From assembly GCA_020735665.1 (NCBI GenBank), contig CP085928.1, positions 2,588,501 to 2,652,500 on the forward strand: 64,000 nucleotides of DNA, written 5' to 3'. Source of the stretch: Lachnospiraceae bacterium GAM79 (GTDB lineage Bacteria > Bacillota > Clostridia > Lachnospirales > Lachnospiraceae). Every line of letters begins with the position of its first letter. Positions within the stretch are counted from its first letter, which is position 1. The position numbers were made by a program, and so were the translations under genes. Shown here one piece after another: positions 51,209 through 62,494 of the stretch. The notes beneath the pieces are model-generated. The model was not told the DNA's origin and searched no databases. It saw nothing but the letters and a program-made list of their open reading frames with translations.

Positions 51209-51484
51209 CTGCCCGCCTCTGTCGGTCTCCTTGGCTGGTATGGGTGGCTGGCATGGGCAGTTGGTCTCCCCACTATAATATGGCATCAGCGAGAATTTCG
51301 TCGTGAGATGCACATTGCCAGTAAATACGGGTGCTTGTTTGAGCCGAAGGCGAGTTAGCACAGGAGTATTTACGAATCAGGCATGTGCAACGAACAGAAA
51401 TCGCAGCAAGCCATTTATAGTGGGGAGACCAACTGCCCATGCCAGTCACCCATACCAGCCAAGGAGACCGACAGAGGCGGGCAG
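51209..51484 (+). repeat. Long palindromic element, family B, copy B4 (longest arms)
   Basis: A 276-bp palindrome. Arms 51209-51277 and 51416-51484 are 69 nt each and match at 68 positions; the one difference leaves a G-T (G-U) pair. The core (51278-51415, plus orientation) has TGCACAT/ATGTGCA, AGTAAATACG/GTATTTACG, GTGCT/AGCAC, apical GCC-GAA-GGC, and an outer GGC/GCC pair where B1 and B2 have GAC/GTC. It lies between divergent genes (malQ and the aminotransferase), so it is not simply a terminator for convergent genes. Confidence 0.87.
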
Positions 51485-51525
51485 ACAGGTTGTGTTAGCT
51501 TTATAAAGTTTTGTTTATGATCTTC

Positions 51526-51675
51526 ATAAATACATCAGAAAATAAACACAGTTTAGACACACTTCCCTTATATACTGTGTATTGTAAGAGTTTTTCATTT
51601 ATTTGAATCCTCTCTCCCCTCATTTTTTGCAAGTGGTAATAAATCTTTCCCCGGTTTGTTACCACTTGTTTTTTG
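51526..51675 (+). ncRNA. Candidate small RNA unit 1 (C/U-rich, own terminator)
   Basis: It has TATACT (51571-51576) as a possible -10, a C/U-rich tract TCCTCTCTCCCCTC (51608-51621) and an intrinsic terminator: CAAGTGGTAA (51630-51639) with TTACCACTTG (51659-51668) then six T. It carries no ORF with a ribosome site. A near-identical unit follows at 51783. The tract could pair with Shine-Dalgarno sequences, as in RsaE/RoxS- or LhrC-type RNAs. No convincing -35 box was found. Confidence 0.5.
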
Positions 51676-51687
51676 TTATAGCGACGA

Positions 51688-51722
51688 GGCAAGTGCAGTG
51701 TGCTTGCACAACTGCATTTGCC
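51688..51722 (+). repeat. Hairpin between the two small-RNA-like units
   Basis: GCAAGTGCAGT can pair with AACTGCATTTGC around GTGCTTGCAC, which is itself nearly palindromic. There is no T run, so it is not a terminator on its own. Confidence 0.35.
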
Positions 51723-51782
51723 GACCGCTAATCACTGAGCCGATAGGCTTTTATCTTAAACAAAAATGTCAGTTTTAGTTTA

Positions 51783-51934
51783 TAAACACATCAGAAAATA
51801 AACACAATTTAGACACACATCCCTTATATACTATGTATTGTAAGAGTTTTTCATTTATTTGAATCCTCTCTCCCCTCATTTTTTGCAAGTGGTAATAAGT
51901 CTTTTCCCCGATTTATTACCACTTGTTTTTTTGC
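51783..51934 (+). ncRNA. Candidate small RNA unit 2 (tandem copy)
   Basis: About 150 bp, roughly nine tenths identical to unit 1: TATACT at 51827-51832, the same TCCTCTCTCCCCTC (51864-51877) and the same terminator stem (51886-51895 with 51916-51925, seven T). Differences lie in the terminator loop and upstream part. It ends 56 bp before the aminotransferase start, so it could alternatively be a duplicated attenuator of that gene. Confidence 0.5.
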
Positions 51935-51989
51935 CTTTTCGGCGGTATACTTCCATTATTAAATTCACAACAGACGGAGGATAACAGGT

Positions 51990-53186
51990 ATGATTTCGGA
52001 AAAATATGCAGATATGACAACCAAAGGTTCTATAATAAGAGAATTTGCGCAGTATGCATCAAAACGTGCGGCAGAGATCGGAAAGGAAAATGTATATAAC
52101 TTTACGATCGGTAATCCTTCTGTTCCGGTATGTCCGGAGTTTACAGAGACATTGGAACGGATGTTAAAAGAGGAAAATCCATTGACACTTCACGGATACA
52201 GCCCGACACTTGGTATTATGTCCGTCAGAGAAGCGGTTGCAGATTCTTTAAACAGAAGATTTGGAATGGAATATACAGCAGATGATATTTTCATGACCTC
52301 CGGTGCAGCAGGTGCGATCGCACATGCGATTCGTTGTGTAACAAAGCCGGGAGATGAGGTGATCACATTTGCTCCATATTTCCCTGAGTATGTTCCATAT
52401 GTTGACGGAACAGGTGCGGTGCTTAAGATCGTGCCGGCGGATATTACATCCTTCCAGATTAATTTTGATGCATTTCTGGAGCTTTTAAATCCAAATGTAC
52501 AGGCAGTTCTTATTAACTCTCCGAATAACCCATCCGGTATCGTATATTCAACAGAGACGATCAAGAAGCTGGCTGCAATTCTGGAAGAAAAGCAGAAGGA
52601 ATATGGACATGATATCTATATTATCTCTGATGAGCCTTACCGTGAGATCGTATTTGAAGGAACGGATTCACCATTTATTTCATCCTTCTATGACAACAGT
52701 ATCTGCTGTTATTCATTCAGTAAGTCACTTTCCCTTCCGGGTGAGCGTATCGGATATGTAGCGGTAAATCCGAAATGTAAGGATGCGAAGCTGATCGTTC
52801 TGATGTGTGGTCAGATCTCCAGATTTACAGGACATAACTGTCCGCCATCCATGATCCAGCTTGGTGTGGCAGAAGTGATCGATAAGACAGCTGACCTGTC
52901 AATCTATGAGAAGAATAAGAATATTTTATATAAAGAGCTTACAAATATGGGATATGAGTGTGTAGAACCGGGCGGAACCTTCTATATGTTCCCAAAGACT
53001 CCGATCGCGGATGCAAATGCATTCTGTCGTATGACAGCCAGCAAGCTGGATCTGATCCTGGTACCGGGAGACAGCTTTATGTGTCCGGGACATATGAGAC
53101 TTGCTTACTGTACCACAACGGAGATGGTAGAACGCGCACTTCCGTTATTTGAAAAAGCAATGAAGCTTGCAAAAGAGATGGAGTAA
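51990..53186 (+). CDS. PLP-dependent aminotransferase, class I/II
   Basis: 398 residues, fold type I. NFTIGNPSVPVCPEF at the N-terminus, TSGAAGAIAHAIR (cofactor phosphate region), LINSPNNPSGIVYS (N-P-S-G/N-N-P motif), IISDEPYREIVF (Asp-Tyr with the PLP ring), and the Schiff-base lysine in YSFSKSLSLPGERIGYVA (about residue 245) are all in place. It belongs with aspartate/alanine-type aminotransferases; the exact substrate is not clear. GGAGGATAACAG precedes the ATG. The maf gene follows after 15 bp. The leader carries the small-RNA-like units, a possible point of control. Confidence 0.9.
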   Translation: MISEKYADMTTKGSIIREFAQYASKRAAEIGKENVYNFTIGNPSVPVCPEFTETLERMLKEENPLTLHGYSPTLGIMSVREAVADSLNRRFGMEYTADDIFMTSGAAGAIAHAIRCVTKPGDEVITFAPYFPEYVPYVDGTGAVLKIVPADITSFQINFDAFLELLNPNVQAVLINSPNNPSGIVYSTETIKKLAAILEEKQKEYGHDIYIISDEPYREIVFEGTDSPFISSFYDNSICCYSFSKSLSLPGERIGYVAVNPKCKDAKLIVLMCGQISRFTGHNCPPSMIQLGVAEVIDKTADLSIYEKNKNILYKELTNMGYECVEPGGTFYMFPKTPIADANAFCRMTASKLDLILVPGDSFMCPGHMRLAYCTTTEMVERALPLFEKAMKLAKEME

Positions 53187-62221: not shown

Positions 62222-62494
62222 TCCATGCAACCGGGGAAGTAGCGGTGCCCTGAACCTGCAATCCGCTATAGCAGGGGTGATAGTTTTCTTGAGGGATGTC
62301 CACTGTAGGGCTGCCCTTAGTAAGTGGCGTTGATGTCTGGGTCTTGCGCAACAGGACTCTTCGAACCGTGTCAGGTCGGAGACGAAGCAGCACTAAGGAG
62401 AATCTCCTGTGTGCCGCGAGGGTGCCTGGGCTGAGTTAACTGCTAAGGTAACGCTTATGGCGGCGTTTCGAGAGAAAACTGCATGGATTTTTTT
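62222..62494 (+). ncRNA. ffs: Signal recognition particle RNA, large Bacillus type
   Basis: About 266 nt closed by TCCATGCA (62222-62229) and TGCATGGA (62480-62487), followed by seven T. The Alu-domain start (GGTGCCCTGAACCTGCAATC, CGCTATAGCAGGG) and the conserved helix 8 (GTGTCAGGTCGGAGACGAAG, CAGCACTAAGG) identify the large bacterial SRP RNA with both Alu and S domains. It pairs with Ffh to target membrane proteins. The helix 8 tip reads GGAG, differing from the usual GGAA. Exact ends are estimates. Confidence 0.92.

Follow-up and report, generated by a model that had tools for sequence, protein, structure and literature searches.

Two tandem units at 51526-51934 of the window, i.e., the whole 64,000-nt stretch of Lachnospiraceae bacterium GAM79 DNA analysed here, are likely trans-acting sRNA genes that are co-regulated with htrA and that would lower the translation of target mRNAs by C/U pairing. 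That the units are standalone sRNA genes is almost certain, because the core is conserved, the terminators covary, the genomic contexts are several and unrelated, and the promoters are their own. The same evidence supports the C/U-rich sRNA candidates proposed in the initial annotation. The RNAs form a new sRNA family with known logic. For a major group of gut bacteria, this family is defined by sequence, has a promoter code and probably belongs to a stress regulon, and its predictions can be tested.

Sequence and layout of the units

The near-identity of the two units, noted initially, was confirmed by a repeat search of the window, which returned a direct repeat of 135 nt with 93% identity (51523-51657 and 51779-51913, spacing 256) and a second repeat block, also 93% identical (51646-51674 and 51903-51931). 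TATACT occurs once per unit (51571-51576 and 51827-51832), and the tract TCCTCTCTCCCCTC lies at 51608-51621 and 51864-51877. The terminator scan placed intrinsic terminators at 51629-51669 and 51885-51926; each has a stem of 17 pairs, including 5 G-C pairs, and is followed by a T run. All three elements listed in the initial annotation were located in both units. The ORF list, whose cut-off was 60 aa, has no + strand entry over the units, in line with the initial claim; one mechanical 63-aa TTG ORF overlaps unit 1 on the - strand (51501-51692). A small ORF reading was rejected on this lack of a + strand ORF and on single-base length changes carried by the core at L036 and L049. The promoter scan listed no sigma-70-type promoter at either unit, which agrees with the early remark that no clear -35 box was present. 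The features of the units and of the gene behind them are given below.

51546..51576, + strand: promoter of unit 1, ACACA-N6-ACACA-N9-TATACT, with the -10 at 51571-51576, no -35, and 0 mismatches to the operator
51583..51675, + strand: predicted sRNA 1, about 93 nt, both ends inferred (start set by assumption 7 nt past the -10, 3' end placed in the T run)
51587..51615, + strand: predicted 5' stem-loop of unit 1, AGAG..CUCU outer and UUCA..UGAA inner
51603..51622, + strand: conserved C/U core TTGAATCCTCTCTCCCCTCA of unit 1, with CCCCUCA as predicted unpaired linker
51629..51675, + strand: intrinsic terminator 1, with the loop UUUCCCC as second C-rich site
51802..51832, + strand: promoter of unit 2, same operator as unit 1, with the -10 at 51827-51832
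51839..51933, + strand: predicted sRNA 2, about 95 nt, both ends estimated
51859..51878, + strand: conserved C/U core of unit 2
51885..51933, + strand: intrinsic terminator 2, with C-rich loop
51990..53186, + strand: PLP-dependent aminotransferase (NCBIfam PRK06836), a frequent neighbour, outside the RNA

A further TATACT, seen by eye at 51946-51951, is a possible own promoter of the aminotransferase gene.

Conservation and genomic neighbours

The aligned set comprised 44 loci, i.e., three of the GAM79 genome, two of G004, one of G157, and 38 named loci. The 5' region, more than 30 nt long, is near-invariant across genera in these loci, which come from about 40 Lachnospiraceae-type genomes. 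Conservation of the C/U tract in relatives, suggested as a check in the initial annotation, is borne out by this near-invariant core.

A unit-length search covered 60 genomes, GAM79 included. Apart from GAM79, the genus is represented there by four genomes, and three of them carry a single unit each; the GAM79 genome itself has a third locus, which matches by the core only (G000:C1:2749668-2749704). G004 additionally holds a core-only locus. The core-only loci differ from the units in promoter and terminator. A 31-nt match in G028, by eye without promoter and terminator, was judged to be chance. The core pattern with up to three mismatches occurred in 15/397 family genomes; eight were judged genuine, and seven were discarded as chance since promoter and terminator were absent by eye. 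In the genome contig collection, the 20-base core form was found in 40 stretches, 38 of them from Lachnospiraceae- or Clostridia-labelled records. Promoter and terminator accompany the pattern at 38/40 of these loci, and L026 and L030, which belong to non-Firmicute records and by eye miss both elements, were dropped. A sequence-only model matched 39/40 genomes, most of which had been picked for carrying the core.

The copy number is mostly one strong copy, with three in the GAM79 genome, G442, and G455 and two in G452, G431, and G004; two copies of G442 lie 315 nt apart. Tandem occurrence, as described initially, holds for the GAM79 units, but within the family generally tandem copies are the exception. 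No Rfam family matched the window at the gathering score, and none matched 51480-51990 plausibly at E<=10. The matches at that threshold, i.e., snoR16 (twice), Lig thermometer, TTC28-AS1_2, and mir-268, were regarded as implausible.

The aminotransferase gene lies downstream on the same strand in 22 of the 44 locus rows (two are repeats of a locus), and tatD lies upstream in 17 of those 22, a few rows being too short to tell. This neighbourhood is the point in favour of an alternative raised in the initial annotation, in which the units would be attenuators (or leaders) of the aminotransferase gene in duplicate. However, the next ORF downstream is on the opposite strand in 13/19 loci examined, most of which have no aminotransferase nearby, and attenuation is impossible at such loci. 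Another gene stands between sRNA and aminotransferase in three of the 22 rows (L040, L041, and L063), and the core is kept while the terminators differ. As a general reading, the attenuator alternative is highly improbable and was rejected in favour of standalone sRNA genes.

RNA structure

The predicted RNAs fold with z of -7.9 (sRNA 1) and -9.5 (sRNA 2), each better than 200/200 dinucleotide shuffles. Because both RNAs outfold all shuffles and other genomes show the same architecture, the units are not a product of chance. A hairpin and T run after the core, usually directly, were found by script in 42/44 loci and in 0/44 shuffled controls; L023 and L058, missed by the script, still show hairpins. 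Among 15 aligned members (14 distinct), both-sided changes were seen in 7/9 pairs of the terminator outer stem and 93.7% of cells pair, and therefore the terminator helix is kept while its sequence varies. On four of five covariation measures 0/500 shuffles matched the terminator, and on the fifth 112/500 did. The motif [CU][CU]CCCCG is found shortly past the core in 25/44 loci, mostly in the terminator loop and, in L053, in the stem.

At the 5' end, AGAG..CUCU around UUCA..UGAA was the predicted fold in 43/44 loci, and one longer helix was predicted in L055. Core shuffles folded as well as this hairpin in 25/1000 cases. Across 26 sequences, every one of the 207 informative cells agrees with its 8 pairs, but the hairpin is nearly invariant in sequence and thus weakly testable by covariation. 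The single compensatory change, G-C to A-U in the third copy of the GAM79 genome, is reached by 22/500 shuffles. Read as its complement, the core gives a Shine-Dalgarno-like sequence, then about 9 nt of spacer, then AUGAAAA. In the predicted fold, the 5' hairpin takes up the CAU (complementary to AUG) together with some of the C/U tract, and CCCCUCA is unpaired. For the CAU and a large share of the C/U core to pair with an mRNA, the hairpin would have to open.

Promoter operator and htrA

The operator WCACA-N6-WCACA-N9-TANNNT was found with at most one mismatch in 40/44 promoters, at a near-fixed distance from the core. It was found in 0/44 shuffled upstream regions, none of which came closer than three mismatches. 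The exceptions are L003 and L036 with two mismatches and L008 and L023 with five, i.e., operator absent. By eye, L003 can be read as TCATG-N6-TCACA-N9-TAACAT, and L008 has TTGACT in place of the operator. The WCACA repeats stand ahead of the -10, which explains the absent -35. Judged from the promoter sequences, the 11-bp repeat geometry would be that of an OmpR-type response regulator, which is the presumed regulator. The sRNA promoter consensus holds TTTCACA, AACACA, and ACACA in register.

In the 2.96-Mb GAM79 genome, this looser pattern has four exact matches, i.e., one at each of the two units, one 68 nt upstream of htrA (813268), and one in front of a ftsE-ftsX-PcsB-like-CtpA operon (151892; the ftsE name was assigned by eye, Pfam giving an ABC transporter). 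No regulator gene is among these four exact sites. PhoP (phosphate) control, considered from the 11-bp repeats, was rejected, as the pstS region is not among them either. With at most one mismatch, the looser pattern gave 24 places in this genome against 14 for the reversed pattern, little above noise. A stricter pattern, ACAYA-N6-ACACA-N9-TATANT, was noise genome-wide at up to two mismatches (42 against 38 reversed).

The operator pattern was built from sRNA promoters, and therefore htrA is its sole independent test. The stricter site, with at most two mismatches, was found 31-113 nt upstream of htrA in 10/11 sRNA-carrying genomes, seven of these sites having at most one mismatch; the htrA of G208 showed no stricter site at up to two mismatches. 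This figure comes from separate scans of the GAM79 genome and of its relatives. The automatic htrA scan parsed 9/11 sRNA-carrying loci and scored 7, the start being misplaced in L130. One of the htrA loci, L172, is an additional copy in G018. Outside the sRNA carriers, 30 htrA loci were searched and 6 were unparsed; the stricter site stands upstream of 20 of the 24 parsed genes, which belong to genomes where the sRNA was not found. The background of this site was 5/619 and 1/582 sampled genes in two genomes, and one of the five is the aminotransferase behind unit 2. The operator is very probably shared by the sRNA and htrA. Since the site is also present at htrA in genomes where no sRNA was found, it looks like an old htrA operator of the Lachnospiraceae, common to the sRNA.

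A metabolic or redox regulator like RsaE/RoxS, with the operator belonging to a ResD/SrrA-like regulator, was weighed against this. RoxS contains C-rich regions and is controlled by ResD, a response regulator (excerpt of PMC4409812), and the palindrome TGTGAA-N6-TTCACA lies upstream in a number of members. However, the exact operator marks envelope genes, i.e., htrA and the ftsE-ftsX-PcsB-like-CtpA operon, and there was no Rfam match. The redox reading is considered quite unlikely.

The promoter site is common to the gene of HtrA, a protease of envelope quality control, which suggests that the response to envelope or secretion stress has an RNA branch. Under such stress, a putative response regulator of the OmpR type, similar to CssR, would switch on htrA and the sRNAs together. 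The sRNA would then use its C/U stretches to pair with Shine-Dalgarno sequences and start regions, and translation of the target mRNAs, probably including those of envelope or exported proteins, would be lowered. HtrA would meanwhile handle misfolded proteins. The presence of two units may provide a higher RNA dose.

Target prediction

Anti-Shine-Dalgarno pairing is inferred, with moderate confidence, to be the mechanism. Target prediction at RBS regions, another check named in the initial annotation, gave no general advantage in the GAM79 genome but did return one pilin-like outlier. A simple caller, run on the window and on 40 segments of 20 kb, yielded 631 starts, and against the starts of this genome the core had a mean Z of 0.14, with 40/60 composition shuffles as low. 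In G447, the core beat the shuffles overall in 96/100 cases (4/100 as low), which is marginal; the advantage was marginal too for 38 loci, where 9/100 shuffles were as low.

The outlier is the mRNA of a pilin-like gene (PF07963; G000:C1, about 1647683-1648231, - strand), with -39.3 kcal/mol and Z -5.8. The predicted pairing spans the Shine-Dalgarno sequence, the start, and codons 2-8, and exceeds the best match of all 60 shuffles. A conserved pilin target was unsupported, since the pairing is not kept in the homologues of the same genus (seven pilin-like genes, z +0.5 to -0.9). In the homologue test, 25/30 loci were parsed, and five putative homologues of other genera, of unestablished orthology, gave z of -2.5 to -3.8 (L262, L265, L273, L282, and L283). 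A conserved MetQ target was likewise unsupported, with Z of +0.85 to -1.29 (6/8 parsed; the start in the GAM79 genome is probably misplaced). No target common to two genomes emerged from 133 ortholog pairs (Spearman 0.15, p 0.08).

These results bear on a further alternative, in which sRNA and regulator are the same and the RNA mainly binds protein, as a sponge or ligand, rather than mRNA starts. More than 30 nt are near-invariant across genera, yet no shared mRNA partner was found, and the starts of the GAM79 genome show no general pairing excess. However, the C-rich exposed stretches fit the anti-Shine-Dalgarno logic of LhrC and RsaE (excerpt of PMC4132741), and one mRNA of the same genome surpasses all 60 shuffles at their best. 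Protein binding as the main role is unlikely, and pairing with mRNA starts is the preferred reading.

AUGAAAA, as read in the core complement, is a usual start of signal-peptide mRNAs. In the GAM79 genome, 43 signal-peptide genes paired better than other genes, with a Z difference of -0.40 (Mann-Whitney p 0.03, 1/60 shuffles), and with shorter start regions the effect was weaker (4/100 shuffles, Mann-Whitney p 0.13). The replicate in G447, planned ahead, gave a difference of -0.39 for 26 genes (6/100 shuffles, Mann-Whitney p 0.17). The top four of G447 include two lipoproteins, and one membrane protein start, at -35.6 kcal/mol, lies beyond the best match of all 100 shuffles. A third small sample showed no signal-peptide effect (7 genes, 30/100 shuffles). 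Signal-peptide mRNAs as a target class are suggestive only and doubtful, and equally tentative is a secretion-stress RNA that lowers exported proteins as a class. If this were true, a single RNA produced alongside HtrA would limit the load of newly made exported protein.

Comparison with known small RNAs

By analogy, the csRNA group of streptococci is the closest analogue. Streptococcal genomes have 2-6 csRNA genes, the CiaR repeat is TTTAAG-N5-TTTAAG (NTTAAG-N5-TTTAAG) about 10 nt before the -10, and htrA is strongly regulated; the Shine-Dalgarno/AUG complementarity of csRNAs lies in an unpaired region between two stem-loops (excerpt of PMC3091779). As in the csRNAs (same excerpt), the genes are intergenic and end in a terminator, direct repeats with an 11-bp period stand some 10 nt ahead of the -10, and htrA is in the same regulon (here by shared operator only). 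The repeats were found at a fixed -10 distance in 40/44 loci and the terminator in 42/44. Two stem-loops joined by a linker are predicted here too, with CCCCUCA unpaired, but of the stretch complementary to Shine-Dalgarno and AUG, the CAU and some of the C/U tract would lie within the 5' hairpin. The differences are the WCACA repeats, which do not match the CiaR repeat TTTAAG, another core sequence, and mostly one copy per genome in the Lachnospiraceae as opposed to two to six.

Rfam holds models of LhrC and RsaE/RoxS, to which the initial annotation had compared the units. The likeness is fair in logic, but the Rfam search gave no kinship. LhrC1-5 of Listeria monocytogenes are under the LisRK envelope-stress system and have UCCC-type sites in loops and linker (excerpt of PMC4132741), and Listeria htrA is reported to be under LisRK (excerpt of PMC12826053). 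The Lachnospiraceae sRNA resembles LhrC as a multicopy sRNA with C-rich sites in loops and linker, of UCCC type in LhrC, and with a presumed envelope-stress two-component control (excerpt of PMC4132741), but it has no match to the LhrC Rfam model. RsaE/RoxS are similarly C-rich, and RoxS is under a ResD/SrrA-type response regulator (excerpt of PMC4409812). Here, however, no Rfam match was obtained, and the Lachnospiraceae operator also marks htrA.

To our knowledge, no sRNA is known in the CssRS-htrA secretion-stress regulon of Bacillus subtilis. In B. subtilis, htrA is controlled through CssR boxes of the type TTTTCACA (excerpt of PMC6749698). The likeness of the Lachnospiraceae operator to this system is one of box sequence only.

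The comparison suggests that the coupling of htrA and a C-rich sRNA under a two-component system arose once more in Lachnospiraceae. The same coupling is present in streptococci and has been reported piecewise in Listeria. Among the papers listed in a limited literature search, covering titles and abstract beginnings, there was no described trans-acting sRNA of Lachnospiraceae or Coprococcus and no described clostridial CssR-htrA-sRNA link. The core string, in three spellings, was absent from the literature searched.

Other observations

The palindrome TGTGAA-N6-TTCACA overlaps or just precedes the direct repeats in several members, e.g., L032, L043, and L052. A Rex site was dropped, since the spacer of this palindrome is N6 and not N4, which we take to be the Rex spacer. 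By eye, the operator with one mismatch stands 84 nt upstream of an HSP20-like gene in G358 (L108 from 1501). In G179 (L115 from 1501) and G134 (L101 from 1501), the operator precedes short terminator-ended stretches of other sequence, which may be additional RNAs under the same control. At G000:C1:2079813-2079865 (L095 and L253), several repeats of this type with 11-bp spacing were seen before a stretch without an obvious long gene.

A MITE-like element of 276 bp with 70-nt inverted repeats, 99% complementary, lies at 51209-51484, immediately before unit 1. When 23 bases of this element were searched for as an exact string, they hit 7/356 loci, all of them this place, and no other place or genome. 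The Rfam search of the window located a bacterial large signal recognition particle RNA at 62223-62486.
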